From an uncultured Rhodospirillales bacterium (GTDB lineage Bacteria; Pseudomonadota; Alphaproteobacteria; ATCC43930; CGMCC-115725), in the NCBI GenBank assembly GCA_903828515.1, contig CAIKMD010000007.1:1334706-1398705 (forward strand): a stretch of 64,000 bases of DNA, in the 5' to 3' direction. Position numbers and translations under genes: made by a program. The notes under the pieces were generated by a model. That model was given only the letters and a program-made list of their open reading frames with translations, was not told the origin of the DNA and made no database searches. Below are positions 19,211 to 40,933 of the stretch, piece after piece. Numbering within the stretch: the first letter of the stretch is position 1; every line of letters begins with the position of its first letter.

Positions 19211-19389
19211 GGGACGGGAAGTCCCGAGCCAAAGAATGGTGCCGACTTAAGCTGAATTTTATGCGCTCCGATGCTGGTCTACCATTGTCCTGAATGGTGG
19301 AGCGGCACTAGAAAATTAGCGTAATCGTAAGAGACGGCTCAGGGGAAAAGAAGCCGTCGTCAATCGTTCGTCGCACTTCGGGGGATGCT
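19211..19389. terminator. intergenic region with two short hairpins upstream of the helicase gene
   Basis: No gene seen. Immediately after the PmtA stop there is GGGAC/GTCCC (19211-19225). Further on, GACGGCT (19333-19339) pairs perfectly with AGCCGTC (19352-19358) over a 12-base loop, about 30 bp before the TTG of the large helicase gene. The first may end the pmtA-like transcript; the second could be a terminator or a leader structure. Neither has a clear T run. Confidence 0.35.
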
Positions 19390-22300
19390 TTGCAAAGCGA
19401 AGTCGACCAGATCAAAAGCAGTCTGGAGAAGGCGCGTCGGCTGCTGATTGACCTAACCAGATCGAACCGCCTCATCCATTCAACTCGGTCTGGACAACGA
19501 GCACACTGCTTAGAAATCGTTGATGCTGACGCAGACAACGTCTCGGAATCGCTCATGTGGGCTTCGACCCCACACCGGTTTCTCTTCGCGGGCGAAGAAG
19601 AAACGGATGCCAGGTCAATCAAATCGCTCCGGACCCTTCTTGATCCCGAAAAATTAAATAAGAGGCTTACAAAATTCTATCGCGAGAGCAGGACGTTCGA
19701 GGAAGAGCAGGGCGTCAACATTTTGTTTATGGCGCTTGGCTTTCTAAAATATTTTGAAGACCCACGAGCCCAAGAGGCCTGCTACGCGCCATTAATTCTG
19801 ATCCCGGTTTCCCTTGAGAGACTAAAAACCGGTGCGTATCGAATGCAGAGGCGTGATGAAGATTTAACTGTGAATGTTGCCCTTAGGGAAAAGCTCAAAC
19901 ACATTGCAGGTGTTGAGTTGCCCGATCTACCAAATGGCGACGAGGAATGGAAGCCGTCCGCATATTTCCAGAAGGTAGAGGAAGCGATTTCACGGCAAAC
20001 GACGTGGAATGTCGAGCGCAACGCTATTGGACTTGGGTTTTTTAGCTTTTCGAAATTTCTGATGTGGCGAGATTTAGATTCCTCATCGTGGCCGAAGAAC
20101 AATCTTTTAGACAACGTACTGGTCCAAACCCTTCTCGGGAGCAACGCAAAGTTCACCCCCGAGCCCCCTTTGGTTGGCGATGATGAGCGCATAGACGAAA
20201 AGATTGATCTTACGACTCAAAGCCACGTTCTCGACAGTGACTCAAGCCAGGCGACCGCAATCGCTGAAGTGTTGTCGGGTCGCCATCTTGTGATTCAGGG
20301 ACCGCCGGGAACCGGCAAATCGCAGACTATTGTAAATATTCTCGCCGCAGCGGCAGGGGCTGGAAAGAAAATATTATTCATTGCGGAAAAACTCGCCGCT
20401 TTGGAGGTGGTCAATGATCGCCTCAACAAATGCGGACTTGGCATACTTTGTCTTGAATTGCACAGTCGGAAAGCCAGCAAAAGTACGGTTATGAGTTCGA
20501 TTGGTTCCGCGATGAACAGGGCCGATACATCCACCGAGATCGGCCAAGATATTACCGCGACGATAAAATCTGATGTGCAAAAGCTAAACCGCTGGACCGA
20601 TACGCTTCACACAAAAGTTGGAAAGTCAGGTCATAGCGTATACGGGATCATGGGCGCTTCACAGTTGCGACGTCTCGAAGCCGCAAGATTAGGCGAGGCG
20701 AGGATCGAGCGCGACGACTGGACCTATGATCAAATTCGTGAAGCAATCGATCTTGCTGAACTAACGGCTCGGCGTCTTGGCCCAATTGGTGTGCCGGCGG
20801 ATCATCCGTGGTTTGGGGCGCGCGGGAAAGTACTCGCGCCATTTGATATAACCAGGCTTACCGCCACTTTGGATGTGGCCGTTGCAGCCTGTGAGAGGCT
20901 CGTCGAGGCCGCAAATGTTGGCGCCGCTCTCGTGGGGAGAGAGTCGCCCAAGACCGCCGACCAGGCGAGATCAGCGGCTAGGCTTCTCGAGAAAATTGCG
21001 AGTGTTCCAGAACTGGGGGCGCCTAATCTTAGTCATCCGTCATGGACCACTGAGCTATCCCGGATTGAGAAAATCATCGCCATTTTCATGTTGCTGCGCG
21101 GGGGCCAGAAAGCTGCGCGACAACTCGTAATTGAAGCGGCATGGTCCGAAGATTTAGTGGCGATAAGAAGGCCGATCGCGGCGCACGGCCAGAATATCTT
21201 CCGGATATTCAACGCCGAGTTCAAAGGCGCGATAGCGAAGTTGAAGGGCCTCTGTGTCGGACCAATTCCGAAACAGTATCGGGCTCGGGTCGAATTTCTC
21301 GATCAGATCATAGGAATTCAGCAAGCAGAGCGCGCATTTGCCGCCGATAGAGAGTTCTTCATAGGAGTTCTCGGGTCGCTATGGCGCGTCTTTGACACCG
21401 ACATCGATCGTGTCCAGGCGATCGTAGGTTGGATTAAAGCCCATGCGGAATATGGCGATGTCAGCGAAAGCTTGCGAGTTGCATCCCGCCTGACCGACCG
21501 TCAACATTTGTTAGAATTAAAAAATCGGATCGACACCGAAGTCGATCATCTCGGTGCTACCTTCAAAATAATTGAAGATAAAACAGCACCGGATTTTGCG
21601 GTCAAACTCCAGCACATTGGCTGGATGCAAGCCGATTTAGAAAAAGTTTTGTGCGTTTTGCGAGCCTGGCAGGCGTCCGTTAGCCGCTACAATGATTGGG
21701 TTGCGTTGCGCGATTCCTTTCAAGAATTGGATCGACTCGGTCTCGGCGCACTTGAGCGACTGGTCGTGGAGAAAGGATTGGCGGCCGACGACATGAGTGG
21801 CGCGGCCCGTGGGCTCATTATCGAGGCGTTGTGGAATCGTGCGGCCTTAGAAATACCTGAGATTGCGAAGATTGAAGGTTCGGAGCAGACGGATACCGTT
21901 ACGCGCTTCCGTGATTTGGATAAAAAGCTAATCCAACGCGCTCGCAGTCAAATTCTCGCCGACTATATGAAGCGTCGTCCGTCACTGAGTCATATTGGGG
22001 AAATGGGAATACTGCGCGACGAATTAGGACGCCAACGAGGGCGTAAACCGGTTCGTAAGGTTATGGAATTAGCAGGTCGAGCTGTTCAGCAGCTCAAACC
22101 CATTTTTTTGATGAGCCCATTGAGCGTTGCACAATTTCTACCGGCCGGTGGGGTTGAATTTGATCTCATTGTGATTGACGAGGCCTCGCAGATTTCACCC
22201 GAAGATGCACTGGGCGCAATTGCTCGCGCGAGACAAATTGTGGTTGTTGGAGATGACAAGCAGCTCCCGCCGACGAACTTCTTCAAACTTGCGGTCGCCG

Positions 22301-24033
22301 ATGATGACGAGACCGAAGACGAAGGTGCCAATGTTGTAAATTACGAAAGTATCCTGTCGATGGCGGGTAGCCGTGGTGTGTCTAGTCGGATGCTGCGCTG
22401 GCACTACAGGAGCAAGCACCCGAGTCTTATCGCTCTTTCGAACGCTTCTTGCTATGCAGATAATTTGTTGCTGCCACCGAGCCCTTTGATTTCCGGCGAT
22501 GAACTCGGCTTACGGCTCATTCAAACGCCGCGTAACTCATATGATCGGGGCAATACGGGTAGGAACGACCCCGAAGCTCGTGAAATAGCTAAGGCCGTCG
22601 CGCAACATCTTGAAATGTATCCCGACTTATCCCTTGGAATCGGCTGCTTCAGTGTGGCGCAGCGAAATGCCATTGATGACGCGCTGCACGAGTTCAAATT
22701 GCGCTCTGCTACGGACACGTTTCAGCCGAAGGGTGAACGCTTCTTTGTGAAGAATCTTGAGGCAATTCAGGGCGACGAGCGCGACGTAATTTTTATTTCG
22801 GTTGGCTACGGCACGGATGCGCAGGGTCGCTTTTTTAATAATTTTGGCCCGGTTAGCGCCGAAGGGGGTGAACGGCGGCTGAATGTGTTGATTTCGCGCG
22901 CGAGAATTCGGTGCGTCGTTTTTTCTTCGATAAAGGGAGGCGATATCGAGGAAAGCACTCACCCCGGCCCGCGTATGCTGAGGGATTTTTTACATTTTGC
23001 GGAGTCTGGTCATATAGCGGCCGGAAACACGACCGGCGCGGATTTCGATAGCGAATTTGAAAAGGCTGTTTCAGACGTTCTTCGGAAAAGCTGTTTCAAG
23101 GTGGCGAATCAAGTTGGCGTCGGCGGCTTTAAAATAGATCTCGCCGTTCATTCGCCGAGTCAACAAGGGCGCTTCGTGATCGGCATCGAGTGTGATGGCG
23201 CAACCTATCACAATTCCAGGTCCGCGAGGGATCGCGACCGGCTTCGGCAGGATATTTTGGAGGGGATGGGCTGGAAGCTACATCGAATTTGGTCGACGGA
23301 TTGGTTTCGGCATCCGGAACGCGAGACCGACCGGCTGTTGCGTGTTGTGCAAGAGGCGTGTTCTGATCCGCCGAAACCGATCATCAGCCCCCCTCCGGCC
23401 GAGGAAATAGATCATCGCGAACCCGATGCGGAGGGGGAAACAGGAATATCGCCGGCGCCGGAGCCTTTACAACTCGTTGTGCAACCCTATCGCATCGCCC
23501 AGCTTCCGAAACAAATAACCATTTTTGACGATACAGATATGAATCGCCTCGCACACCTTGCGATCATTGTTGTCGAAGTAGAAGGGCCCGTGTTTATTGA
23601 CCGCATCGCAAAAAGGATCAGAACAGCGTTTGGCCTCAAACGTACAGGGAATCAAATTAAAGGCAGGATTGGTGATGCTCTTAATGCGGCTGAAAGGTTA
23701 GGCCGTGTGATCGAGGTTCATCCAGGTTTTTGGGATCTGGCCGGTCGCGGCAAACCTACTGTACGAAACCACAAGGATAGTGGCGAGCAACCCTTAGCCC
23801 CTGAGGATATTTGTCCGACGGAATATCAAGAGGGAATTGTTGACGTACTGAGCGCGACCGTTAATGCCCACCGCAGTGAGCTTGTCGTTGCTGTAACGCG
23901 ATTGCTTGGCTTTGATCGTACCGGTCCGGGGCTTCGGTCCGCTATCGAGGAACAGATTGATAACTTGGTTCAGGCGACACGCGTGATAGAGGTCGGTCAA
24001 ATGTTATCTGTGGTTCGCTCCGAATTGCAGTGA
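19390..24033 (+). CDS. DUF4011-SF1 helicase-Vsr/MTES_1575-like nuclease-DUF3320 protein (putative phage defence)
   Basis: A 1547-residue multidomain protein. Residues ~5-220 fit DUF4011 (ARRLLIDLTRSNRLIH and later FLKYFEDPRAQEACYAPLIL). The helicase core is of the Upf1-like SF1 class: Walker A GPPGTGKS at 304-311, DEAS at 930-933, then DDKQLPPTNFF, MLRWHYRSKHPSL, AIQGDERDVIFISVGYG and LNVLISRA. A PD-(D/E)xK/Vsr-like nuclease follows, with D1250 in FKIDLAV and E1267-C-D1269 in GIECDGATYHNS. A DUF3320-like region lies at ~1384-1450. Proteins with this order are reported in defence islands (single-gene 'Hhe' type, from memory). It starts with TTG after GGGGGA. Its DNA is visibly richer in A+T than its neighbours, suggesting transfer. 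All catalytic motifs look intact. Confidence 0.88.
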   Translation: MQSEVDQIKSSLEKARRLLIDLTRSNRLIHSTRSGQRAHCLEIVDADADNVSESLMWASTPHRFLFAGEEETDARSIKSLRTLLDPEKLNKRLTKFYRESRTFEEEQGVNILFMALGFLKYFEDPRAQEACYAPLILIPVSLERLKTGAYRMQRRDEDLTVNVALREKLKHIAGVELPDLPNGDEEWKPSAYFQKVEEAISRQTTWNVERNAIGLGFFSFSKFLMWRDLDSSSWPKNNLLDNVLVQTLLGSNAKFTPEPPLVGDDERIDEKIDLTTQSHVLDSDSSQATAIAEVLSGRHLVIQGPPGTGKSQTIVNILAAAAGAGKKILFIAEKLAALEVVNDRLNKCGLGILCLELHSRKASKSTVMSSIGSAMNRADTSTEIGQDITATIKSDVQKLNRWTDTLHTKVGKSGHSVYGIMGASQLRRLEAARLGEARIERDDWTYDQIREAIDLAELTARRLGPIGVPADHPWFGARGKVLAPFDITRLTATLDVAVAACERLVEAANVGAALVGRESPKTADQARSAARLLEKIASVPELGAPNLSHPSWTTELSRIEKIIAIFMLLRGGQKAARQLVIEAAWSEDLVAIRRPIAAHGQNIFRIFNAEFKGAIAKLKGLCVGPIPKQYRARVEFLDQIIGIQQAERAFAADREFFIGVLGSLWRVFDTDIDRVQAIVGWIKAHAEYGDVSESLRVASRLTDRQHLLELKNRIDTEVDHLGATFKIIEDKTAPDFAVKLQHIGWMQADLEKVLCVLRAWQASVSRYNDWVALRDSFQELDRLGLGALERLVVEKGLAADDMSGAARGLIIEALWNRAALEIPEIAKIEGSEQTDTVTRFRDLDKKLIQRARSQILADYMKRRPSLSHIGEMGILRDELGRQRGRKPVRKVMELAGRAVQQLKPIFLMSPLSVAQFLPAGGVEFDLIVIDEASQISPEDALGAIARARQIVVVGDDKQLPPTNFFKLAVADDDETEDEGANVVNYESILSMAGSRGVSSRMLRWHYRSKHPSLIALSNASCYADNLLLPPSPLISGDELGLRLIQTPRNSYDRGNTGRNDPEAREIAKAVAQHLEMYPDLSLGIGCFSVAQRNAIDDALHEFKLRSATDTFQPKGERFFVKNLEAIQGDERDVIFISVGYGTDAQGRFFNNFGPVSAEGGERRLNVLISRARIRCVVFSSIKGGDIEESTHPGPRMLRDFLHFAESGHIAAGNTTGADFDSEFEKAVSDVLRKSCFKVANQVGVGGFKIDLAVHSPSQQGRFVIGIECDGATYHNSRSARDRDRLRQDILEGMGWKLHRIWSTDWFRHPERETDRLLRVVQEACSDPPKPIISPPPAEEIDHREPDAEGETGISPAPEPLQLVVQPYRIAQLPKQITIFDDTDMNRLAHLAIIVVEVEGPVFIDRIAKRIRTAFGLKRTGNQIKGRIGDALNAAERLGRVIEVHPGFWDLAGRGKPTVRNHKDSGEQPLAPEDICPTEYQEGIVDVLSATVNAHRSELVVAVTRLLGFDRTGPGLRSAIEEQIDNLVQATRVIEVGQMLSVVRSELQ

Positions 24034-24112
24034 CAGTGCGTTCAATTGCTACGTTGTACCCAAGCGATTACCGGCATTAGCACCGCAATTCTTTGCGATC
24101 GTGACGTGGAGG

Positions 24113-24496
24113 TCAGAGCCAGGCGGTCAGATCGTCGAGCGGGACGCCGAGCGCGGCCGCGATCTTGACCATGGCGTCGAGGCTGCCGGGTTTCTTGCGG
24201 GTTTCGATCTCGCTGAGATAGCCCTTCGGCACGCCGCTCGCCGCGGCGATCTGCTCGATCGTCTTGCCGCGATGCTTGCGCCAGACACGCGCCGGATGCG
24301 CGCCGTCGAGGAGTTCCTTCACCATCTCGATCGGCAGGTCGTTTTCATGCGCCTTTTCATAGCCCATGGCCTTCTCGCGCGTCTCGGCCTTTCTGACAAC
24401 GGCGCGGTCATGGGCGTCTTCGGCGCGGGCGATCAGCTTCTCGTATTGAGCGCGCGTCAGGGTGACGGTGTCGGTTTTCATCGCTGCCTTGCTCAT
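24113..24496 (-). CDS. XRE-family HTH antitoxin of a type II toxin-antitoxin pair
   Basis: A 127-residue protein. The N-terminal half is charged and helical (MSKAAMKTDTVTLTRAQYEK), presumably the toxin-binding part. The C-terminal half is an HTH_3/XRE DNA-binding domain: VWRKHRGKTIEQIAAASG, then VPKGYLSEIETRKKPGSL and MVKIAAALGVPLDDLTAWL. Its start overlaps the toxin stop by four bases, so translation is coupled. The order toxin then antitoxin is that of HigBA-like pairs. It probably represses the operon through the inverted repeat at 24760-24807. Confidence 0.88.
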   Translation of the reverse strand: MSKAAMKTDTVTLTRAQYEKLIARAEDAHDRAVVRKAETREKAMGYEKAHENDLPIEMVKELLDGAHPARVWRKHRGKTIEQIAAASGVPKGYLSEIETRKKPGSLDAMVKIAAALGVPLDDLTAWL

Positions 24497-24750
24497 CGGT
24501 AGATTTCCTTTCGGTTTCCCACGAACTCGACGACCACGGTTTCGATTCCCCGGTTGACCCGGCAGATCGCGCGCCAATCACCATGCCGAACCCGGACCGC
24601 GCCATTCATTCCCGTCAGATGCTTGGCGGCCGGGTTGGGGGCGAACGGGGCAGCGGCGAATTGCATGATCTTCTTCATCAGCGCCGCTGAGTCCCTCTTC
24701 GGCATCGCGGCGAGGGCCTTGGCGGCGGCTGGGGTGAAGGTCGCTTTCAC
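24493..24750 (-). CDS. RelE/ParE-superfamily toxin
   Basis: An 85-residue protein, MKATFTPAAAKALAAMPKRD with the later RVRHGDWRAICRVNRG and TVVVEFVGNRKEIYR. The small size, the GDWRAI strand and the terminal basic NRKEIYR strand match the RelE/ParE fold, whose members cleave mRNA on the ribosome or poison gyrase. Conserved R and K residues are present, so it is probably active. It is first in a two-gene operon with the HTH antitoxin and begins 9 bp from a perfect 16-bp inverted repeat. Confidence 0.87.
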   Translation of the reverse strand: MKATFTPAAAKALAAMPKRDSAALMKKIMQFAAAPFAPNPAAKHLTGMNGAVRVRHGDWRAICRVNRGIETVVVEFVGNRKEIYR

Positions 24751-24759
24751 GTTCCGATT

Positions 24760-24807
24760 ATCTCCAATAGAGAAATCGTCGTCAAATCAATTTTCTCTAT
24801 TGGAGAT
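24760..24807. promoter_or_regulatory. perfect 16-bp inverted repeat, probable toxin-antitoxin operator
   Basis: The arm ATCTCCAATAGAGAAA (24760-24775) is repeated inverted as TTTCTCTATTGGAGAT (24792-24807), with a 16-base spacer. Each arm also contains an internal CTCNNNNNGAG-like dyad (CTCCAATAGAG), so each could be a half operator bound by one HTH dimer. It lies directly upstream of the toxin start codon at 24750. The location and symmetry fit autoregulation by the antitoxin. Confidence 0.75.
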
Positions 24808-24856
24808 TTAATACAAACCCGTCTCCGCGAGGGTATCCTTGAATCTCGTTGCCACG

Positions 24857-26092
24857 TCACGCCGTTCGATCCGGAAACAATCCCGGCATCCAGCGCGATG
24901 CTAGGGTTGCGGGGAAGGCGAGGCGCAAAGGTGCGCGCGTGCTCTCGGAAGCGAGAACGCCTTGTTCGAGTAATGCGGAAACGACGCGGCGGGCCTGGCG
25001 TTCGCCGGTGCCGACGATGGCGGCGGTGTCGCCGCGCGGAAGTTCGCCGCGATAGAGGATGGCCTCCAGGATCGCGCCGGATTTTTGCGGTAGCTTGTCG
25101 AGCCGGATTTGCTCTTCGGTCCAGAGCAGGATGCGCGTGCGCAACTGGTCCGGCTGCATCAGGTTTTCCATGAAGTTGACCTGATCGAGGCAGACCCTCA
25201 GGAAGAAGTTGGTGAATTCGGCCAGCGCCTCTTCGCTGAGATTGCCCCGGCCGTCGAGGTCGTTGCGGCGCGGCAGGTCGCATTCGGCGAGGTGGCCCAT
25301 ATAGACATCGACGCTACGCGCGAGGCCGCGCGCGATCGACCAGACCGCGCCGGTGTCCAAGGCTTCGAGCAGCGTCGCGTGCGACATCAGTCTGGCCACG
25401 CGTCCGTTGCCGTCGAGGAAGGGATGAATCCACGCAAAGCGATGATGCGCCGCGGCGGCGGCGATGATGGTCTCGCTCTTGCCGAGTTTGCCGTAGGCCT
25501 GTTCGAAGCGTTCGAGGAAGCGCGGCACCGCCGGCGCACTGATGGCGACATGGTGGCCAACCGCGACATCGCGATGGCGTAGTTCGCCGGGGATGATTTT
25601 GACGCGTTCCTTTGTCTGCGGGTCTTCGATCCACAGGAGATCCTCGGGCAGTGCCTCGCAAAATCGCCGGTGAATCTCGCGAATGGCATCCGTCGTGACG
25701 GCGCGGCCTTTGATGCCGCCATTGTCGATCCAGTGCTGAACCGCGATATGAGCCCGGGCTTCGAGTTGAAGGTCGCGCTTCGTGGCGTCACGGCTGTAGT
25801 CGCCCTTGAGCGCGCGCTCGATATCGATCGGATGCGTATCGTGTCCTTCGATCAGGTTGCTGTAGTAGCAGTTCATCGAACGCACGAGGTCGGCGAGCGA
25901 GGTCAGCAGGCTCGGAGGCAGTGAGCTGCGGAAGGCGGCGCTCTTCTGCGCCAGTTCCAGCGCCAGATCGGTGAGCGAGGCGCGGTGGCGCGAGGTTTCG
26001 CCGATCAGCATCGGCTCCATCAGGCCGATGCTTTCGCCCCGATCATGCGCCGCTTTAATGTCCGGTTTGATGTCCGCTTTCTTCGTGGCCAT
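24857..26092 (-). CDS. Fic family protein (putative AMP-transferase)
   Basis: A 411-residue protein with a Fic_N region, a central Fic domain and a C-terminal winged-helix-like region. The active-site motif HPFLDGNGR (H223 to R231) is canonical, so it should transfer AMP or a similar group to hydroxyl side chains. An inhibitory motif of the class II type, S-x-x-x-E-G, is visible at S78 to G83 (SNLIEG), so the protein is likely self-inhibited. The tail (about 330-400; GDTAAIVGTGERQARRVVSALL) resembles a winged helix. There is no separate antitoxin gene beside it. It faces an NMT1-type binding-protein gene across an AT-rich gap. Confidence 0.93.
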   Translation of the reverse strand: MATKKADIKPDIKAAHDRGESIGLMEPMLIGETSRHRASLTDLALELAQKSAAFRSSLPPSLLTSLADLVRSMNCYYSNLIEGHDTHPIDIERALKGDYSRDATKRDLQLEARAHIAVQHWIDNGGIKGRAVTTDAIREIHRRFCEALPEDLLWIEDPQTKERVKIIPGELRHRDVAVGHHVAISAPAVPRFLERFEQAYGKLGKSETIIAAAAAHHRFAWIHPFLDGNGRVARLMSHATLLEALDTGAVWSIARGLARSVDVYMGHLAECDLPRRNDLDGRGNLSEEALAEFTNFFLRVCLDQVNFMENLMQPDQLRTRILLWTEEQIRLDKLPQKSGAILEAILYRGELPRGDTAAIVGTGERQARRVVSALLEQGVLASESTRAPLRLAFPATLASRWMPGLFPDRTA

Positions 26093-26244
26093 AATCCTTT
26101 ATATATCATATAATTATATTAATAAAAAGCGAAGTTCTGTAGGTTAAAATGTCCGCTTCCAAGGCCATGTTAAGGTGGTTGGGCGGCGCGAATTTGGCGC
26201 TAATATCGTGCCCAAGAACAATGAATCGACGACAAGGGGGAACC
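26093..26244. promoter_or_regulatory. divergent AT-rich promoter region with 12-bp palindrome
   Basis: The gap between the Fic gene and the binding-protein gene holds a run of A/T unlike the surrounding DNA. The palindrome ATATAATTATAT (26108-26119) contains TATAAT on both strands, so it can serve as a -10 box for either gene and as an operator. AAGGGGG at 26234-26240 is the ribosome site that selects the ATG at 26245 over the in-frame starts further upstream. Confidence 0.5.
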
Positions 26245-27225
26245 ATGTTTGGCCTGATTCCGACATCAAGAATCGCTCGCTTCTGTCTGCGCCTCGTTCT
26301 CGCCGCTGCCGGCGTCCTTTATGCGACGAGCAGCGGATCGGCGGAAAGCTTGCGCGTCGGAAAGGCGTTTCCCTCGGCTTTCGGGTTCGTTCCGCTCGAT
26401 GTCGGCGCGCGCGAAGGCATCTTCAAGAAATATGATCTCGATATCGAGATCACGAGCTTCGGCGGGGCGCCGATGCTGGTTCAGGCCTTGACCGCTGACG
26501 CCGTCGATATCGGGCTCGATGGCGGATCGGATATTGCGATGATCGCCAAGGGCATGCCGGGAAAAGGCGTTGGCGCTCTCGGCAACGCGCCGCTCGAAAT
26601 CACGATCGTCGCGGCGCCCAATACAACGATGAAGACGGTCGCCGATCTGAAGGGAAGGAAAATATCGGTCTCCCAGATCAGTACCTTGACCGGATGGCTG
26701 GTCAGCGAGCTGTCGCGTCAGCAAGGCTGGGGCGTCGAAGGGATTACCCGCATCGCATCGGGAAACGCGGGTCTGTCGAATCTCGTGTCCGGCGATGTCG
26801 ATGGATTCACCATCGATCTGTCGACCGCCCTGCAGCTTCAGCGGCAAGGGCGGGGGAAGCTCTTTCTGAAGTTCGGCGATTACGTCAAGGATTTCCACGC
26901 TTACGTCATCATCGCGCAAAATTCGCTGATCGCGAAGCGGCCGGCCGCGTTGCGGTCGTTCCTCAAGGCGTGGTACGAGACGATTGCGTTCATGAAAGCC
27001 AATAAAGAGCGCAGCGTCGCCGTCGCGGCGGAGATCCAGCATGTCGATCCCGACATCGCCGCGGGCACCTATGACGTGATGATGAATTCGTTTTCGACCG
27101 ATGGAAAATTCTCGCCCAAGGCATTGGAGGTCATGGCGCGGTCGTTCGTCGATCTCGGCGTCGTCGACAAGCCCCCCAATCCCGCCGACCTCGTGACCGA
27201 AGCGTACCTTTCGCCCGTCAAATAA
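26245..27225 (+). CDS. NMT1/THI5-type ABC substrate-binding protein
   Basis: A 326-residue periplasmic protein. The start MFGLIPTSRIARFCLRLVLAA gives a signal peptide cut near GSAESL. The mature protein begins LRVGKAFPSAFGFVPLDVG and has REGIFKKYDLDIEITSFGG, ISVSQISTLTGWLVSELS and a C-terminal helical lobe. It resembles the proteins at 13153 and 31098. The in-frame ATGs at 26149, 26167 and 26221 lack a good ribosome site. An acetoacetate-decarboxylase-like gene and a cupin gene follow on the same strand, probably in one operon. No permease or ATPase is near. Confidence 0.88.
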   Translation: MFGLIPTSRIARFCLRLVLAAAGVLYATSSGSAESLRVGKAFPSAFGFVPLDVGAREGIFKKYDLDIEITSFGGAPMLVQALTADAVDIGLDGGSDIAMIAKGMPGKGVGALGNAPLEITIVAAPNTTMKTVADLKGRKISVSQISTLTGWLVSELSRQQGWGVEGITRIASGNAGLSNLVSGDVDGFTIDLSTALQLQRQGRGKLFLKFGDYVKDFHAYVIIAQNSLIAKRPAALRSFLKAWYETIAFMKANKERSVAVAAEIQHVDPDIAAGTYDVMMNSFSTDGKFSPKALEVMARSFVDLGVVDKPPNPADLVTEAYLSPVK

Positions 27226-27247
27226 ATTCGCGGGAAGGCAGGACGCG

Positions 27248-28096
27248 ATGAAGACCGATGACCCGAACCTCAAGCCGCAATACCGGATGCCGCGCGTGTT
27301 CGGCGCGCTGCCCGGTCCGCGCAACGTGCCGAAAGACAAACAGCATCTGCCGAACAACCAGACCAATCTGGTCATGTCGGTTACCGTGCTGACCGATGCG
27401 CGGCTCCTGGCCGAATTGCTGCCGCCCGACTGCACGCTCGCCGGCGAGCCGCTGCTCACCGTCACCATGACGGTGATGTCGAATATCGGCTGGCTCGCGG
27501 GGCGCGGCTATTCGATCCTCAATGTCGGCTTCCCGATTGCTCATCAGTCGCGACGCAGCGGCACGGTCAGCGGCAATTTCACGCCGGTGCTGTGGGAGAA
27601 TCATGCCGACCCGATCATGACCGGCCGCGAGGAGCTGGGCTTTGCCAAGATCTATGCCGACATGCCGCCGCCGGTGGTGATCGGCGATACCTATCGCGGG
27701 GCGGCGTTGTGGCAGGGTTTTCGTTTCTTCGACATCGCGGTGAGCGACCTTGTCGAGGCGCCCGCGCAGCCGGCGCCGGCTTCGGGCAGCTTTCACTACA
27801 AGTTCGTTCCGCGCACGGGCGCGCTGGGCGAGGCTGACGTCGCCTATCTCGAATATGCGCCGCCGAACGGGCTCGCGACCGGCTATGGCGGCATGCGGAT
27901 GACGCAGCGGCGGACGGGCAAGGGAAAATTCCAGTTTCATCCCGCCCGTTGGGAAGACGTGCCGTTTCAGTATCCGATCATCAATGCGCTCGCCGATCTT
28001 CCGGTGCGCGAGGCGCGTGGGGCCAGCGTGACGATGCTGGCCGCGAGCGGCACCATCGGCGATCCCAGCGCGGGGACGTTGAGCGAAATCGACTGA
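27248..28096 (+). CDS. acetoacetate decarboxylase-fold protein
   Basis: A 282-residue protein of the ADC-like superfamily. The fold signature YSILNVGFPIAH and the segment NHADPIMTGREELGFAK are visible; K134 in GFAK occupies the position of the Schiff-base lysine of acetoacetate decarboxylase, following E128/E129. Family members include decarboxylases and also aldolase-dehydratases, so the reaction is not certain. It is 22 bp after the binding-protein gene and 22 bp before the cupin gene, and likely cotranscribed with both. Confidence 0.82.
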   Translation: MKTDDPNLKPQYRMPRVFGALPGPRNVPKDKQHLPNNQTNLVMSVTVLTDARLLAELLPPDCTLAGEPLLTVTMTVMSNIGWLAGRGYSILNVGFPIAHQSRRSGTVSGNFTPVLWENHADPIMTGREELGFAKIYADMPPPVVIGDTYRGAALWQGFRFFDIAVSDLVEAPAQPAPASGSFHYKFVPRTGALGEADVAYLEYAPPNGLATGYGGMRMTQRRTGKGKFQFHPARWEDVPFQYPIINALADLPVREARGASVTMLAASGTIGDPSAGTLSEID

Positions 28097-28118
28097 CCGA
28101 TCATCAAAGGAGGAAGCC

Positions 28119-28667
28119 ATGCCGAAAGACTTGCCGCCGATAAGGCGCATCGTCACCGGAATCGATGCCAAGGGCCGTTCGCGGATCGTCGAGGATGGTC
28201 CGCCGCCGGTGATTTCGACGGTCGCGGCGCGGCCCGGATTGCGCAACGCGAATCTCTGGGCCACCAGTGCGGCGCCCGTCGCGCTCGACGAGCCCGACAA
28301 GATCGCCGATCACAAAGGCCTCTATCCGCCGAAACTCGGCACCGTCATCCGCATCATGGACATTCCGCCCGAACCGCAAAACGAGGCCGAGCTACAGGCC
28401 TGGTACAAGGCCACGGGGCAGGGGATGTTCCCCGATCGCGACCGCATCGCCGGCGACAAGTCGAAACATCCCGGCATGCACATCACCGACACGGTCGATT
28501 ATGCGATCATCCTCTTCGGCGAGATGTACGCGGTGATGGAGGACGGCGAGACCCTGATGAAGCCGGGCGACGTCCTGGTTCAGCGCGGGACGAATCATTC
28601 GTGGAGCAATCGCTCCGGCGAGGTCTGTCGCGTCGCGTTCATTCTCGTGGATGGCCGGCGGGATTAG
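28119..28667 (+). CDS. cupin-domain protein
   Basis: A 182-residue protein with one cupin domain in the C-terminal part. The first cupin motif is degenerate (GMHITDTVDYAIILFGEMYAV) and the second is EDGETLMKPGDVLVQRGTNHSWSN followed by EVCRVAFILVDG. Such proteins are metal-dependent oxygenases, isomerases or sensors. It is last in the binding-protein, ADC-like, cupin series. A strong AAAGGAGGAAG ribosome site precedes the ATG. The specific role is unknown. Confidence 0.83.
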   Translation: MPKDLPPIRRIVTGIDAKGRSRIVEDGPPPVISTVAARPGLRNANLWATSAAPVALDEPDKIADHKGLYPPKLGTVIRIMDIPPEPQNEAELQAWYKATGQGMFPDRDRIAGDKSKHPGMHITDTVDYAIILFGEMYAVMEDGETLMKPGDVLVQRGTNHSWSNRSGEVCRVAFILVDGRRD

Positions 28668-28695
28668 AGTGTTCAGATCGAATCAGTACAAGCGG

Positions 28696-28891
28696 AACCA
28701 CACCTCACCCTCCCGCGCGATGCGCGGGCCCCTCCCTCTCCCCGCTTCGCGCGGAGAGGGGCTGATCGAACCAACCCTCTCCGCTCAATGGGTGGAGAGG
28801 GTTTTATTGACGATGCCGACTTGCCCCTCTCCGCGCTTGCGGGGAGAGGGAGGGGCCCATTGCGACAGCAATGGGAGGGTGAGGTGTGGTT
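28696..28891. repeat. compound intergenic palindrome with perfect 19-bp outer arms
   Basis: AACCACACCTCACCCTCCC (28696-28714) returns inverted at 28873-28891 without mismatch. Inside lie further C-rich/G-rich pairs (CCCTCCCTCTCCCC against GGGGAGAGGGAGGGG) and two small stem-loops. Together they make a nearly continuous nested palindrome of about 196 bp. It occupies the convergent gap between the cupin gene and an unknown gene. It resembles the nested intergenic repeats of alphaproteobacterial genomes; no coding capacity is seen. Confidence 0.7.
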
Positions 28892-28916
28892 GTGCTGGTT
28901 CGGTTGTTCCAGCCTC

Positions 28917-29486
28917 TCACCCGCCCTTGATCCATAACGCGCGGTCGATGGTGCGCATGTCGACGGTCCAGTCTTTGGCATAGCGGCGGCACAGCGCGGT
29001 GTATTCGGTCCACCGTCCGTTCGAATATTTCGTGTCGCTTCCGACCGCTTTCATCGCGCGCTTGTCGAAGACCGGAAAGCCGTTGGCGTCGTAAGCGAAG
29101 GCGAAATGCAGGATGACACTGGCGATCGGCCAGGCGACGCCGTCGAGCGCCAGCAGAACGCCGATCCGCAAGCGTTCGCAATCGGCGGTCAGCGCGGCGC
29201 GGGTGATCTGGCGGATGTCGTCCTCGGAGTTGAGATTGCATAATTTTCGCGTCTGGCCGAGGCTCGATTTCCAGTCGACGGTCGCGAAAAGATCGTCCTT
29301 GGTCAGGCACGGGCCCTGGTTGCGCCGCCACACTGCTTCGTACCGCTCGATCAGCGCGCGTTCCGCCGGCAGGATGGCATAGCGGGCGGCGCAGGCGAGC
29401 AATTCGTCGCGTGCGGCAAAGGGCCAGATCATAAAATGCTGCCTCGCTGGAATGTGCTCGATCGAGATCGCATCGCGCCACGCCAT
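28917..29486 (-). CDS. hypothetical protein, 189 residues
   Basis: Reads MAWRDAISIEHIPARQHFMI and is cytoplasmic and helical, with features such as GVLLALDGVAWPIASVILHFAF and a C-terminal RTIDRALWIKGG. I do not recognise a named family. The open frame continues to 29606, but that extension overlaps the divergent membrane-protein gene and is Pro-rich and unlike the rest, so the start at 29486 is preferred with moderate certainty. Function unknown. Confidence 0.6.
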   Translation of the reverse strand: MAWRDAISIEHIPARQHFMIWPFAARDELLACAARYAILPAERALIERYEAVWRRNQGPCLTKDDLFATVDWKSSLGQTRKLCNLNSEDDIRQITRAALTADCERLRIGVLLALDGVAWPIASVILHFAFAYDANGFPVFDKRAMKAVGSDTKYSNGRWTEYTALCRRYAKDWTVDMRTIDRALWIKGG

Positions 29487-29575
29487 GAACCCTAGCACCG
29501 TCGGGCGCGACGATTGCAAACCGTTTTCAAACTCGTTTAGCCTGTGCGGGTATGGTGGGTGACGCGGGGGTAGCG

Positions 29576-30343
29576 ATGAGCACGGTGGTGGAGGCGCGCG
29601 CGACAATTCGGGTCGCCGCCAAGGCCGATTACTTCTTTGTCTGGATGGCGACGGTTTGCCTGGGCGTCGCGTTTCTCGGTTTCGCGCCGACCTATTGGCT
29701 GCCGATGGTGCAAGGCGGGCTCAGGGTCAATCCGGTCGTCCATGTCCATGGCGCGATCTTTTTCGGCTGGGCGCTCTATTTCGTCTATCAGGCCTGGCTC
29801 GCCGCGTCGGGGCGGCTGGCGCGGCATCGCCGGGTCGGCATGATCGGCGTGTCGTTTGCCACCGCGATGACGATCTTCGGCACGCTGGTCACGATCAACT
29901 CGATGAAATCGGCGATCGCTTTGGGCATGGCCGACGAAGGCAAGGCGTTCGCCTTCGTGCCGCTGAGTTCGATCCTGATGTTCGCGGTGCTGGTGGCGTT
30001 TGCGATCGGGAATGTGCGCCGGACGGAATGGCACAAGCGCCTGATGCTGGTCGCGGCGATCTCGATCCTCGATGCGCCGATCGCGCGGTGGTTTCAACTG
30101 GCGCTCGCGCCGCCCGATGCGGTCGGGCCGCCGCCGGTCGCCGCCGATCTGGGGCCCGCTCTGGTGTCCGTCCTGCTGATGCTCGTGGCGATCGTGCATG
30201 ACCGGCGGCGGCTTGGCCGCGTGCATCCTGCCTATTGGTGGGCCGGCGGCTCGTTCGTCGCCCTGAAGCTCGCGCAGATTCCGCTGAGCGCGACGGCGGC
30301 GTGGCGCGCGGTCGCCTCGGGCGTGCTGGCGCTGGCGGGTTGA
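29576..30343 (+). CDS. hypothetical integral membrane protein
   Basis: A 255-residue protein with about seven hydrophobic segments. The first follows a charged N-terminus at FFVWMATVCLGVAFLGFAP. A conserved-looking VHVHGAIFFGWALYFVYQAW segment opens helix 2 and may bind a metal or haem through its histidines. The remaining helices alternate with short loops (HRRVGMIGVSF, EWHKRLMLVAA). I know of similar uncharacterised membrane proteins in proteobacteria but no function. GGGGG at 29566-29570 supports the start. Confidence 0.7.
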   Translation: MSTVVEARATIRVAAKADYFFVWMATVCLGVAFLGFAPTYWLPMVQGGLRVNPVVHVHGAIFFGWALYFVYQAWLAASGRLARHRRVGMIGVSFATAMTIFGTLVTINSMKSAIALGMADEGKAFAFVPLSSILMFAVLVAFAIGNVRRTEWHKRLMLVAAISILDAPIARWFQLALAPPDAVGPPPVAADLGPALVSVLLMLVAIVHDRRRLGRVHPAYWWAGGSFVALKLAQIPLSATAAWRAVASGVLALAG

Positions 30344-30507
30344 GCGGCTTCGCAATCGTCATGGGAATGCGCTATAGTGGTTGCCGGACATGCGACGCGG
30401 CTTTGCGGCTTGCCCCCAACGCGTCAGGAACTCGTCCACACCGTCAGACTTCAATCCCAACGCTCGCCGAACTTTTGCTCCGCGAGCCATCCTGAAAGAG
30501 AATTCTT

Positions 30508-31020
30508 TTGCCGAACGACCGTACGGCCGCCGCTGCCAAATTGACCAGCTACGCCAATATCGAACACGACCAGGCCCGTCAGGCCCGCGCTGCCGCGGAT
30601 GCCCTGTTCAAGCCGAGACTGCAAACCACGCCGTCGCCGTCGCCCGCGCCGCTGGTGATCGATCCCTGGGCGCCGAAATCGGCGACTGCCCCAACGCCGC
30701 CGGCGAGTGCCCCGGCAACCTCGGCGATCGCGGCGGAGGCGCCGCCGCTGCGCGTGCCGCGCGTCCTCACGATCGCCGCGCCGCCCGTGGCGATACCGCA
30801 CGCCGAACCGGTGGCCCGACTCGACGCGACGCCCGAACCGATGCCGCCGCGCGTGGGCAAAATCGCCGATGCCGATCATCGCCGCATCCGCGCGCTGGCG
30901 CTTTATGGCGTGTCGATCGACCGGATCGCCGCCGATTACGGGGTCGCCGCCTCGCTCGTCGCGCCCATCGTCATGCAAAGCGCGCCGGCTGGGCAGGGCT
31001 CGGTGTTCGCCTGGGCCTGA
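30508..31020 (+). CDS. hypothetical Pro/Ala-rich protein with C-terminal helix-turn-helix-like segment
   Basis: A 170-residue protein beginning with TTG, supported by GAAAGAGAA at 30494-30502. Residues ~45-115 are a low-complexity Pro/Ala linker. The C-terminal part (HRRIRALALYGVSIDRIAADYGVA) resembles a short helix-turn-helix of the Hin/resolvase or sigma-4 kind, but the protein is too short to place. Function unknown. Confidence 0.55.
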   Translation: MPNDRTAAAAKLTSYANIEHDQARQARAAADALFKPRLQTTPSPSPAPLVIDPWAPKSATAPTPPASAPATSAIAAEAPPLRVPRVLTIAAPPVAIPHAEPVARLDATPEPMPPRVGKIADADHRRIRALALYGVSIDRIAADYGVAASLVAPIVMQSAPAGQGSVFAWA

Positions 31021-31097
31021 GACCGGTCCCGACTATCGTCCTTTGACGGCCGCGCCCGGCAACCTACAATCCCGGCAAAATAAGTCGGGGAGGATGC

Positions 31098-32069
31098 ATG
31101 CTGATTCGGGCTCTCGCTGTTTCGTCGTCACGCGGTCTCGGCGTCGCCGTCATCGCTCTCGCCTTTCTGTCCGCGTCGGCTTCGGCCGCCGACAAGATTC
31201 GCGTCGGCACGCCTGAATCGACCGGGTTTTCCTTCGGCGTGCCCGATGTCGGCAACGAGACCGGCATCTTCAAGAAATATGGGATCGAGGTCGAGCGCAT
31301 CGATTTCGCCGGCGGCGCGAAGATGCATCAGGCGATGGACGCCGGCGCCCTCGACGTGATCAGCGGCACCGGGTCCGACATGCTGTTCCTCACCAAGGGT
31401 GCGCCCGAGCGCGGCGTCGCCGCTTATGCCAACGATCTGAACGCCATCTCGCTGGTGGTGCGCGCGGACGATCCGGCCCGCAAGATCGAAGACCTCAAGG
31501 GCAAGACCGTGGGGACGAGCACGACCGGCTCGTTCACCAGTTGGATCGCGAAAACCATCGCGGCGCAGCACGGGCTCGGGCCGGACGATCTGAAGATCGC
31601 CTATCTCGGCACGATGAGCGGCATCATCGCCGGCCTGCTGACCAGCAATGTCGACGTCATCACCGGCCCGACCTCGCGCTCGCTGATCCTGCAGAACGAA
31701 GGCAAGGTCCGCATCCTCGTCAATGCCGGCGACGAGATTCAGAATTTCATCGCCAACGTCGTCTATGCCAGCAATTCGATGATGAAGGATCGGCCCGACG
31801 ACCTGCGTAAATTCCTGCGTGCGTGGTTCGAGACGATCCGCTTCATGAAGGACCACAAGGCCGAGACGGTCCGCATCACCCAGAAATCGACCCAGTTGCC
31901 CGACGACATCGCCTCGAAGGGCTATGACCTCGAAATGCCGAGCTTCTTCACCGACGGACATTTCGACCGCAAGAAGCTCGCGGCGGTTCAGCAATCGCTG
32001 GTCGATCTGAAACTGCTCGAGCGCGCCGTCCCCGACGACACGCTGATCACCGAGGCCTTTCTGCAATAA
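31098..32069 (+). CDS. NMT1/THI5-type ABC substrate-binding protein
   Basis: A 323-residue periplasmic protein with signal peptide (MLIRALAVSSSRGLGVAVIA, cut near SASAAD). The mature part begins IRVGTPESTGFSFGVPDVG, with ETGIFKKYGIEVERIDFAGG, VGTSTTGSFTSWIAKTIA and RFMKDHKAETVRI. It is clearly related to the proteins at 13153 and 26245, forming a paralogous trio. It starts a series of small genes (VOC, DUF1993, a second binding protein, ICL/PEPM) on one strand, probably an operon. Ribosome site GGGGAGG is well placed. No transporter membrane component is near. Confidence 0.88.
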   Translation: MLIRALAVSSSRGLGVAVIALAFLSASASAADKIRVGTPESTGFSFGVPDVGNETGIFKKYGIEVERIDFAGGAKMHQAMDAGALDVISGTGSDMLFLTKGAPERGVAAYANDLNAISLVVRADDPARKIEDLKGKTVGTSTTGSFTSWIAKTIAAQHGLGPDDLKIAYLGTMSGIIAGLLTSNVDVITGPTSRSLILQNEGKVRILVNAGDEIQNFIANVVYASNSMMKDRPDDLRKFLRAWFETIRFMKDHKAETVRITQKSTQLPDDIASKGYDLEMPSFFTDGHFDRKKLAAVQQSLVDLKLLERAVPDDTLITEAFLQ

Positions 32070-32096
32070 TCTCACGACTTGAAAAGGAGCCCCATC

Positions 32097-32528
32097 ATGT
32101 CACGCCCGCAAATCCGTCACCTCGCGATGTTCGTCCGCGATCCCGACAAGGTTGCCGCGTTTTATCGCAGCGTGTTCAAGATGGACGTCGCGCATAAGGC
32201 CGAGGCGACGAAGACCGAAGGCAAGGCGTGGTTCCTGACCGACGGCTATATGAGCCTCGCCATCCTGCCGCAGCGCCTCGAGGGCGAAGCCGCCTGCGGG
32301 CTCAATCATTTCGGCTTCGCCGTCGACGACACGGCGGAAATCTCGGAAGAGCTGGTCGCGGCCGGTGTCGAGGAGCCGAAGAAACGCCCCTCGACGCGGC
32401 CTTACGCCGAATATCGCGGCTGCGATCCCGAGGGCAACTGGTTCGACATCTCGCAGCACGGCTTTGACAGTGTCGAGACCGAAGCCGAACGCGCCAAGCG
32501 CAAGGAACTCGCCGGCGTAAAGGCCTGA
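32097..32528 (+). CDS. VOC (glyoxalase/dioxygenase) superfamily protein
   Basis: A 143-residue VOC-fold protein: QIRHLAMFVRDPDKVAAFYRSVF as the first beta-alpha-beta module and LNHFGFAVDDTAEISEELV with YAEYRGCDPEGNWFDIS as the second. Metal-ligand candidates are H in RHLAM and the H/E of the second module. It starts at the ATG after AAAAGGAG (32082-32089), not at an earlier in-frame codon. The substrate is unknown. Confidence 0.87.
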   Translation: MSRPQIRHLAMFVRDPDKVAAFYRSVFKMDVAHKAEATKTEGKAWFLTDGYMSLAILPQRLEGEAACGLNHFGFAVDDTAEISEELVAAGVEEPKKRPSTRPYAEYRGCDPEGNWFDISQHGFDSVETEAERAKRKELAGVKA

Positions 32529-32540
32529 GGGGGAACGAGC

Positions 32541-33059
32541 ATGTCACTCTATAAGGCGTCGGTGCCGACCTACATTCAGATGCTCGGCAGCATCACCACG
32601 TTGCTCGATCGCGGCATCGCCCATGCGGCGGCGAAGAAGCTCGACCAGACCGTGTTTACCAATTTCCGCCTGTTCCCCGACATGCGGCCCTTCACCTTCC
32701 AGATCCATTCGGTGACCGATCACGCCAGCGGCTCGTGTCAGCGTCTCGCCGGGATCGAGGCGGTGCTGCCGCCGCGCGAGGAGACCACGCTCGACCAGTT
32801 GAAGCTGCGCGTGGCCAAGGCGCTCGACGTCGTCAAATCGGCGTCGGCCGAGGCGATCGACAAAAACGCCGACAAGGATGTCACCTTCCCGATGGGCCCG
32901 CGCAAAATCACCATGAAGGGCTGGGACTACATGCTGCATTTCGCGATGCCGAATTTCTATTTCCACCACACGACGGCCTACGACATCCTCCGGCATTGCG
33001 GCGTCGAAATCGGCAAGGGCGATTTCCTCGGCGCCATTCCGGGGTTCCCGAAGGCATAG
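32541..33059 (+). CDS. DUF1993 family protein
   Basis: A 172-residue four-helix-bundle protein of the DinB-like type, matching DUF1993: YKASVPTYIQMLGSITTLLDRG, VFTNFRLFPDMRPFTFQIHS, and FAMPNFYFHHTTAYDILRHCGV near the end. The histidines in helix 2 and in FHHTTAY are placed as in DinB metal sites. Function unknown; here it is in line with VOC and binding-protein genes. Confidence 0.87.
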   Translation: MSLYKASVPTYIQMLGSITTLLDRGIAHAAAKKLDQTVFTNFRLFPDMRPFTFQIHSVTDHASGSCQRLAGIEAVLPPREETTLDQLKLRVAKALDVVKSASAEAIDKNADKDVTFPMGPRKITMKGWDYMLHFAMPNFYFHHTTAYDILRHCGVEIGKGDFLGAIPGFPKA

Positions 33060-33068
33060 GGGCCCGCC

Positions 33069-34184
33069 ATGCGTCGGGGGAACATCGTCGCCGTCATCGC
33101 CGCTGCCGCGATCGGGCTCGCGGCGATGGCGCCGCCGGCCGTGGCGCAATCCAAGTCCAAGGCGTGGACGGATGCCGTCGCGGGCGCCGCGACGGAAGGA
33201 TCGGTCGTCATCAACATTCCGGCCGGCAATGCCCTGCATGACTTCCTCGCGCGGGAATGGACCAAGACATTTCCGCAGATCAAGCTCGAGATCAACGCGA
33301 TCGACGAGGCAACCTGGATCCAGCGCGTCCGCATCGAACGGGATTCGGGAAAATATCTGTGGGACGCATCGATGTCGGGATCGGTGACCGCCTTCGCGAT
33401 GAAGAATAGCGGCTTCGTCGTCGCGATCGTGCCTGAACTCATCCTCGACGACGTCAAGGACCCGAAGCTGTGGGGCGGCTGGGACCGCGTCTTCACCGAT
33501 AACGAGCATCGCTATGTGATGGCGACGCAAAACTTTCTCAAGATGCCGTTCTACAACGCCAAGCTGCTGGCGCCGGAAAAAGTCAAAGCCGAGGGTACCA
33601 AGGTCTTTCTCGATCCCGCGCTCAAGGGAAAATTCGTCTGGAACGATCCGCTGCTGCCGACCTCGGGCGAGACCTTCGCGCTGGTCATGCGCAAGCTGCT
33701 GGGCGATGCGGGGCTGAAAACCTTCGTGACCGAGCAAGCCGTCTTCCTGCCCAACATGATGGACATGGTCGACAAGATGGCACGCGGGCAATACGCGGTG
33801 TCGCTCGGCCCGGTCATGACCGCGATGCTGCAACGCTACAAGGATGCCGGATTGGACCTCGATGTCCGGCCGCTCGGGAACACGCCGGCGGAGGGCGCCT
33901 ATTCCAATTTCGGCGGCTCGAACCTCATCATGATGAAAGACCCGCCGCATCCCAATGGTGGCCGGGTGTTCGTCAACTGGATGCTGTCGAAAGAGGTCGC
34001 GGCGGGCCTCGCCAAGGCGCAGACCCAGGATTCCAATCGCGTCGATCTTGCGTCGATCCTGCCGGCGGCGTTGCAGCCGGTCGCGGGCGTGACCTATGTC
34101 GAGCCGCAGCGCGAATCATCGGTCGACGAGCTGCGCGCGGCGCACGATCTGATCAAGGATATTCGCGGCGCGATGCCGCATTGA
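33069..34184 (+). CDS. ABC transporter substrate-binding protein, iron(III)/thiamine type
   Basis: A 371-residue periplasmic protein with a Sec signal peptide (MRRGNIVAVIAAAAIGLAAM, cut near VAQSKS). The mature part resembles the family of Fe3+/spermidine/thiamine-like binding proteins: EGSVVINIPAGNALHDFL, ERDSGKYLWDASMSG, and FLPNMMDMVDKMARGQYAVSLG. No iron-ligand tyrosine pair is clearly visible, so iron is not assured. It lies between the DUF1993 gene and an ICL/PEPM gene, with no permease nearby. Confidence 0.87.
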   Translation: MRRGNIVAVIAAAAIGLAAMAPPAVAQSKSKAWTDAVAGAATEGSVVINIPAGNALHDFLAREWTKTFPQIKLEINAIDEATWIQRVRIERDSGKYLWDASMSGSVTAFAMKNSGFVVAIVPELILDDVKDPKLWGGWDRVFTDNEHRYVMATQNFLKMPFYNAKLLAPEKVKAEGTKVFLDPALKGKFVWNDPLLPTSGETFALVMRKLLGDAGLKTFVTEQAVFLPNMMDMVDKMARGQYAVSLGPVMTAMLQRYKDAGLDLDVRPLGNTPAEGAYSNFGGSNLIMMKDPPHPNGGRVFVNWMLSKEVAAGLAKAQTQDSNRVDLASILPAALQPVAGVTYVEPQRESSVDELRAAHDLIKDIRGAMPH

Positions 34185-34221
34185 ACGCCCGAAACATCAT
34201 CCAGCAGGGGAAACTCTCGTT

Positions 34222-35181
34222 ATGAATGCTCACGACGCCGTCCGCGCCAAACGCAAAAAATTCCGCGAATTGCTGACCGGCCCGCGCTGTACCGTGATGC
34301 CGGGCGGCTTCTCGGCGCTCTATGCCAAGATGGCCGAGCGCGCGGGGTTCGAGTCCTTTTTCTTCGCCGGTTCGCAGATGTCGGCCTTCCTGTTGGGTGT
34401 GCCGGACAATGGCTTCATCGGGCTGCGCGACGTGGTCGACCATGTGCGCCATGCGGCGGCGATCTGCGATATTCCGATCTTCGTCGATTGCGACACGGGC
34501 TATGGCAACGCGGTCAATGCCGATTACGCGGTGCGCGAGGTGTGCCGCTCGGGCGCCGCCGGCATGCAGCTCGAGGATCAGGAAGCGCCGAAGAAATCCG
34601 CGACCATGGCGGGACGGCGTTGCGTGCCGATGGCCGAACATGTCGGCAAGCTCAAGGCCGCCATCGCCGCGCGCAACGAGATGGACCCGGAGTTCGTCAT
34701 CTGTGCCCGCACCGATATCCTCGGGGCCGAGGGCGGCGATTTCGATCAGGCCCTCGAACGCTCCATCGCCTATGTGAAAGACGGCGGCGCCGATTTCGTC
34801 TGGCTGAATTCGTGCGAGACGCGCGCGCAATTGAAGCGTGCCTGCAAGGAAATCCCCGCGCCGGTCTTCGCCTTGTGGGCCAACACGATCGAGCCCGCGC
34901 CGACGAACCAGGAATATATCGATCTCGGCGCCTGCATGATCATGTATCCGACCATCGCCGCCACCTGGGGGCTCCAGGCCTCGTGGGAGAAGCTCAACGA
35001 CATGCGGGAGCAGGGCGGCGCCTATATCGATGACCGCGCTCAGCGCAAGGCGGGGTCCTATGGCAAGTGGGGCCCGGTCGAACAGGCGATCTTGACCAAC
35101 GCCGCGCGCGTCCGCGAGATCGAGGAAAAATATCTGACCGACGAGGACAAGCGCGACTACGAGAACACCTGGGGGCACTGA
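34222..35181 (+). CDS. isocitrate lyase/PEP mutase superfamily protein
   Basis: A 319-residue TIM-barrel enzyme. It has the Mg-site FVDCDTGYGN and the acidic EDQEAPKK segment. The expected KKCGH catalytic loop of isocitrate and methylisocitrate lyases reads K124-K125-S126-A127-T128, so the general-acid cysteine is replaced by Ser. That puts it among relatives such as oxaloacetate hydrolase, dimethylmalate lyase or PEP mutase/phosphonate hydrolases rather than true lyases of glyoxylate cycling. It closes the gene series begun at 31098. Confidence 0.87.
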   Translation: MNAHDAVRAKRKKFRELLTGPRCTVMPGGFSALYAKMAERAGFESFFFAGSQMSAFLLGVPDNGFIGLRDVVDHVRHAAAICDIPIFVDCDTGYGNAVNADYAVREVCRSGAAGMQLEDQEAPKKSATMAGRRCVPMAEHVGKLKAAIAARNEMDPEFVICARTDILGAEGGDFDQALERSIAYVKDGGADFVWLNSCETRAQLKRACKEIPAPVFALWANTIEPAPTNQEYIDLGACMIMYPTIAATWGLQASWEKLNDMREQGGAYIDDRAQRKAGSYGKWGPVEQAILTNAARVREIEEKYLTDEDKRDYENTWGH

Positions 35182-35375
35182 GGACAGGCAACGAGGCTGA
35201 ACAAATCGATACGGGCACGGTCGGCCAAGGCGATATGAGTGAACATGGCCGAGCCCGCTTGCGGCAGAAGCCGTTATCAGGCTGCCACGAAATCGTGTAC
35301 GCTTTATCGAATATATAGAAAGACCGCGTGACGGCGAACTTCTTGGTCTCGAGAATATTTTTGAGGAATAGAAGC
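35182..35375. other. intergenic region, no gene seen
   Basis: A 194-bp gap between the ICL/PEPM gene and a secreted-protein gene. The second half is A/T-richer (around 35300-35370, with TATCGAATATATAGAAAG) and probably carries the promoter of the next gene. GAGGAA at 35363-35368 is its ribosome site. Confidence 0.35.
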
Positions 35376-36677: not shown

Positions 36678-36693
36678 GGACGGGATTAGACCC

Positions 36694-40053: not shown

Positions 40054-40056
40054 ACG

Positions 40057-40869: not shown

Positions 40870-40933
40870 GCAGGTCAGGGCTTTCCGGATGGCGGTTGCG
40901 CCGGTCGCCGGCCGTGGCGACAATCGTGGCCGC

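Follow-up and report, generated by a model that had tools for sequence, protein, structure and literature searches.

We find that the 1547-residue protein encoded on the 64,000-nucleotide stretch of DNA analyzed here (hereafter, the window) is, judged by its sequence, a divergent member of PDC-S37, an already catalogued candidate family, and that its gene is foreign and was recently acquired by this genome. A defense role for the protein is likely. The reading that we favor, with somewhat more belief than doubt, is that the gene came by horizontal transfer and encodes a PDC-S37 family protein that is self-contained and directed against mobile elements, combining a DNA-acting motor with a nuclease. 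The catalytic sites and the C-terminal tail of this divergent, intact single-gene candidate are now assigned; the assigned sites make the choice of knock-out mutants simple, and a phage test would decide the standing of PDC-S37 relative to Hhe. Apart from these assignments, the gene is an ordinary accessory defense candidate, and the finding is largely of a known type.

The reading frame is present and open throughout its 1547 codons from a TTG start, with an SD-like GGGGGA, read from the sequence, immediately 5' of this codon at position 19390. Consistent with the preliminary description of a DUF4011 region, SF1 helicase, Vsr-like nuclease, and DUF3320-like region in a single chain, Pfam profiles for DUF4011, AAA_11 (the first helicase half, E 2.5e-19), AAA_12, MTES_1575, and DUF3320 all match above their curated cut-offs (Table 1), and these matches are not due to chance because the E-values exclude it. 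By its motifs, the motor is a split SF1 (Upf1-like) helicase: Walker A, motif II (DEAx), and motifs III, V, and VI are all intact, and the closest solved chains are those of SMUBP-2, UPF1, and SEN1. The nuclease likewise has the fold, the acidic residues, and the histidine of Vsr-fold (EDxHD-like) enzymes.

We measured conservation in an alignment of 36 homologs and, for the nuclease, also among 12 closer members. P305-Q312, D930/E931/A932, G954/D955, Q1127/G1128, N1165/V1166/R1170, and D1250 are found in all 36 rows and G304, S933, C1268, and D1269 in 34-35 of them (D1269 in 35), and all 12 closer members share D1250, E1267, D1269, and H1274. The catalytic positions named previously (Walker A 304-311, DEAS 930-933, D1250, E1267, and D1269) are all where they had been placed, intact, and invariant or nearly so among homologs, and the query deviates from near-invariant columns rarely and never at a catalytic residue. 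Mean column identity is 0.26-0.47 in the helicase insert vs 0.5-0.8 in the core. A pseudogene reading of the locus is ruled out by the intact frame and motifs.

Table 1. Features of the helicase-nuclease gene, the segment that carries it, and adjoining genes (window positions)
Feature	Position	Strand	Basis or remark
Whole gene, DUF4011/SF1 (Upf1-like) helicase/Vsr-type nuclease/tandem winged-helix (PADLOC PDC-S37)	19390..24033	+	ORF, profile match
DUF4011 (PF13195), residues 19-169	19444..19896	+	Pfam E 1.3e-32
GPPGTGKS, Walker A of the first RecA-like half, residues 304-311	20299..20322	+	Pfam, alignment
Large insert splitting the helicase core halves, ~residues 400-880	20587..22029	+	Low column identity
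DEAS (helicase motif II), residues 930-933, with motif III GD..QLPP after it	22177..22188	+	Near-invariant, 36 homologs
Second RecA-like half, AAA_12, residues 996-1180, motifs QGDERD and NVLISRAR	22375..22929	+	Pfam 1e-8, conservation
Vsr-type nuclease MTES_1575, residues 1223-1318; E1224, D1250, E1267, D1269, H1274	23056..23343	+	Pfam 2.6e-35
First winged helix (predicted), residues 1383-1449, overlapping DUF3320 (1379-1424, Pfam 5e-12)	23536..23736	+	Pfam, structure prediction
Second winged helix (predicted), residues 1476-1541	23815..24012	+	Predicted HHHEE, mostly pLDDT 75-93
Accessory 28.9-kb segment, helicase-nuclease gene leftmost	19213..48145		Four relatives lack it at the corresponding site
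HTH_3 antitoxin-like protein	24113-24577	-	Pfam; genomic context
ParE-like toxin	24493-24750	-	26.2 bits vs cut-off 23; genomic context
Fic protein	24857-26092	-	Pfam; genomic context

Structure prediction was applied to residues 1195-1547, using an alignment that included viral-contig homologs (mean pLDDT 75.5). The model consists of the nuclease, a poorly ordered linker, and two winged-helix copies. The modeled nuclease aligns with I-Bth0305I (Z 10.9, rmsd 2.7, 96 aligned), NGO0050 (Z 10.1), and Vsr (Z 9.8 for 1cw0, and 9.0). Both tail repeats are predicted to adopt a helix-helix-helix-strand-strand arrangement, and the second matches solved winged-helix domains at Z ~8, a level not decisive by itself. 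The prediction and its fold matches support assignment of the formerly unassigned tail past residue ~1450, where a second DUF3320-like repeat had been suspected, as a second winged helix in tandem with the first, and a related MTES_1575 protein has been described from sequence as carrying two C-terminal wHTH domains at the same place, overlapping DUF3320 (PMC3710099). The tandem winged helices as modeled probably bind DNA. For DUF4011, modeled within residues 1-288 (pLDDT 78), comparison with solved structures gave nothing confident (the best Z was 2.7), which does not show that its fold is new. Three viral-contig relatives (L158:4331-5128, L159:5134-5988, and L160:1817-2629) seem, by eye, to carry a GreA/GreB C-terminal-like domain at their ends; because it takes the place of the window protein's two winged helices, the tail may have been exchanged between branches.

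Assignment to PDC-S37 follows from a whole-length match to the PADLOC model (PADLOC-DB 2.0.0, PDLC05009, a single-gene phage defense candidate), with residues 6-1540 aligned to model positions 4-1545 of 1550 (1546 bits, E 0). The PADLOC Hhe model matches the same protein at 661 bits in three pieces, and the NCBI models for Hhe (NF042953) and ProA (NF058533) score it at 973.6 and 1221.7 bits, below their respective equivalog cut-offs of 2000 and 1500, ruling out its filing as either. A Klebsiella plasmid Hhe (2743.8 bits) exceeds the Hhe cut-off, and a long homolog (L089, 1923.7 bits) that of ProA. In a quick likelihood tree, the query falls in a supported 17-row PDC-S37-type group, apart from the Hhe-type and long ProA-type rows, and has a long end branch (1.27). 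The protein is thus like PDC-S37 in length (1547 residues vs 1550 positions), in DUF4011-helicase-MTES_1575-DUF3320 order, and in grouping with the short PDC-S37-type proteins, but it is at best 37% identical to the nearest member found, and it is chromosomal and stands at one end of a segment whose genes are mainly metabolic. It has DUF4011, the Upf1-like helicase, and the MTES_1575 nuclease in common with Hhe (Gao_Hhe in DefenseFinder), whereas the Hhe example is 1893 aa long, has no DUF3320 hit at E 0.01, and sits on a separate branch. Residues 8-1510 align to positions 356-1903 of the ProA model, including its C-terminal region, but the model's first 355 positions have no counterpart, DUF4011 starting at residue 19. 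Both Hhe and ProA are titled anti-phage in their NCBI family names, and Hhe was reportedly found to be anti-phage by Gao and co-workers in 2020.

Beyond these families, the giant HEPN-transglutaminase-SF1 helicase-Vsr-wHTH proteins of the MTES_1575 type (PMC3710099) share the SF1 helicase, the Vsr-type nuclease, and two C-terminal wHTH domains with the window protein, in which, unlike in those proteins, neither HEPN (no hit up to E 1) nor transglutaminase was detected. The helicase of Hhe, a system also referred to as "Gao Hhe" (PMC13249269), has been placed in SF1_Upf1 (PMC10925250), and E. coli ECOR17 regained no susceptibility to the tested T4 mutants when hhe was deleted (PMC9391042). PDC-S37-type candidates were nominated computationally by "guilt-by-embedding" (PMC10855318); a literature search by the names ProA and PDC-S37 returned nothing relevant, and we found no published phage challenge of any PDC-S37 member. 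The link to single-gene defense made in the preliminary description accordingly stands in kind, through the full-length PDC-S37 match and the anti-phage names of the sister families, but to call the gene a "strong" candidate was an overstatement, as PDC-S37 is itself a computational candidate, 20 homolog loci show no excess of defense neighbors over a control, and the surrounding segment is devoted mostly to transport and metabolism.

The foreign origin of the gene is evident from both composition and position. Earlier remarked on as A+T-richer than its flanks, it has 52.2% GC and a GC3 of 0.53, against 61-64% GC and a GC3 of ~0.84 in its neighbors, and its composition is also unlike that of the remainder of the 28.9-kb segment. 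The protein encoded by the methyltransferase gene on its left is 87% identical in the same-genus genome G001, where an FAD-linked oxidase gene follows the methyltransferase stop by ~30 bp; in the window, the same oxidase gene stands 28.9 kb to the right of the methyltransferase gene. In G009, G010, and G018, at most ~1.8 kb lies between the segment-flanking genes; in G010 and G018, this interval is taken up by an acyl-CoA dehydrogenase gene (identified by eye from its sequence). Because the flanking genes stand near-adjacent in these four relatives, the segment is accessory here. No word of at least 10 bases that could mark attachment-site repeats is common to the three junction stretches, and no mobility gene was recognized among the scanned segment proteins.

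The distribution of the gene is sporadic and accessory. Matches of any kind are confined to a minority of the genomes in our genus and family sample, and the sole other sampled genome of the genus lacks the gene, ruling out a genus-core gene on that one genome; neither of the findings that had been set down as counting against the preliminary description was made, with profile hits present and the gene accessory. The PDC-S37 model at E 1e-100 matches 26 of 289 class genomes (~9%), some of these hits being longer ProA-like or Hhe-like relatives. Matches also occur in 457 plasmid records, all below 60% identity, in one "bacteriophage" record, and in viral contigs, which hold dozens of relatives, and searching genome contigs with this one protein turned up a single distant archaeal locus. 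Four homologs (L085, L091, L061, and L095) are broken by one stop codon, reflecting decay or split genes, as in L085 (1318 + 284 aa) and L091 (917 + 841 aa).

Individual homologs do keep company with defense genes. An Azospirillum homolog has AAA/OLD-like, RecD-like, and PDC-M09-like neighbors, a Paraburkholderia homolog (L046) adjoins DUF4297 with a DUF87 protein, and a Salinibacter homolog (L053) adjoins a type I-E CRISPR-Cas locus; some further homolog loci have no defense context. On a viral-listed contig (L127:816-13650; IMGVR_UViG_3300024320_000845), a PDC-S37 homolog of 1565 aa lies 25 bp behind the BREX operon pglX-pglZ-brxL. Collagen-like and lysozyme-like genes can also be seen by eye on this contig. 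To place such cases in proportion, we compared 117 nearest neighbors at 20 chromosomal homolog loci in class genomes with 117 control genes elsewhere in largely the same genomes, a small comparison that tallies families rather than loci and relies on a crude gene caller. At this sample size there was no excess of PADLOC matches beside homologs, with Gabija, PDC-S11, and PDC-M11B found beside homologs and restriction-modification and Septu-like families among the control genes, so strong guilt by association is not supported for chromosomal members. A conserved BREX partnership is also rejected: L127 is a single case, and no BREX family appears in the neighbor tally, which took in the closest sampled chromosomal homologs (G141, G142, G165, and G196).

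Speaking for defense, then, are the family match, the Upf1-like and Vsr-fold parts, the two winged helices, the foreign composition, the empty site in relatives, the viral and plasmid homologs, and the BREX, DUF4297, and CRISPR-Cas neighbors; speaking against it are the lack of neighbor excess, the metabolic segment, the ECOR17 hhe deletion result, and the fact that DUF4011 genes can be core, as is one that flanks cDHS1 throughout the P. aeruginosa isolates (PMC10250203). We infer DNA as the substrate, the trigger, the order of the steps, and defense as the selected role. The 1547-residue protein would engage phage DNA, whether invading or replicating, at sites of unusual structure such as ends, ssDNA, or replication intermediates, whereupon the ATP-driven Upf1-like SF1 motor would move along or remodel the DNA and the Vsr-fold nuclease in the same chain would cut it. 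Self would be told from non-self by DNA structure or by phage-triggered release of autoinhibition, and not by methylation, because no modification enzyme accompanies the gene. The proposed targeting of DNA structure follows an argument made in 2013 for related giant proteins, which lack modification genes and were proposed to recognize invading DNA directly through their C-terminal wHTH domains (PMC3710099). A bolder version, which is possible but which we rather doubt, is that one gene encodes a DNA restriction machine independent of modification, with the tandem winged helices setting the target as well as self/phage discrimination and DUF4011 forming a new regulatory or DNA-binding fold.

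The same parts might also serve abortive defense, with infection or DNA damage relieving the autoinhibition of a nuclease, which would then degrade the DNA of phage and host without distinction. Hachiman and Hna, both reported to act abortively, pair a motor with a nuclease in the same way, and the large insert and tandem winged helices would leave room for autoinhibition; the helicases of Hachiman and Hna, however, are SF2 enzymes of other groups (PMC10925250), and the sequence offers nothing to separate abortive degradation from selective cleavage. We regard this mode as unlikely. That the protein instead maintains the genome, processing repair intermediates or replication forks and moving between genomes by happenstance, would suit the known presence of Upf1-like helicases and Vsr-fold nucleases in nucleic-acid maintenance, the core DUF4011 gene of P. 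aeruginosa, and the unremarkable neighbor test, but the gene is missing from the sister species and from most of the family and class, its homologs travel in plasmids and viral contigs, and its GC3 is foreign, making this role quite improbable. We give very little credence to a weapon between elements that excludes plasmids or competing prophages instead of lytic phage: homologs are indeed carried on plasmids and in viral contigs, and the L127 homolog closes a BREX operon in a contig with phage-like genes, but by sequence such a protein would look the same as phage defense, and the copy in the window lies on a chromosome, in a segment whose scanned proteins include none recognized as the product of a mobility gene. 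Compared with these, an acquired PDC-S37 protein acting against mobile elements is the reading we retain.

As for the genes around it, the toxin-antitoxin pair and Fic protein reported to adjoin the helicase-nuclease gene are confirmed, and known defense-type context in the window is limited to them; the remaining segment genes are mainly solute-binding (transport) and catabolic or metabolic. The adjacent protein at 18581-19210 matches Methyltransf_11/UbiE-type models, and examination of genes beside the helicase-nuclease gene revealed no DNA methyltransferase. A dispersed palindromic repeat occupies window positions 28671-28902, with dozens of copies in the source and same-genus genomes and few in the family's other genera. 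A relative of the Fic protein (69%) in G003 contig 355 (L172:519-6335) lies beside genes that resemble, by eye, those for the tail of a prophage or gene transfer agent. Another, 77% identical, in G011 contig 54 (L171:1339-6494) stands between a tyrosine-recombinase-like gene and a helicase-nuclease gene whose product joins the C-terminal part of a helicase to a Vsr-like nuclease and a tail resembling GreA, giving a second instance of Fic/helicase-nuclease adjacency.
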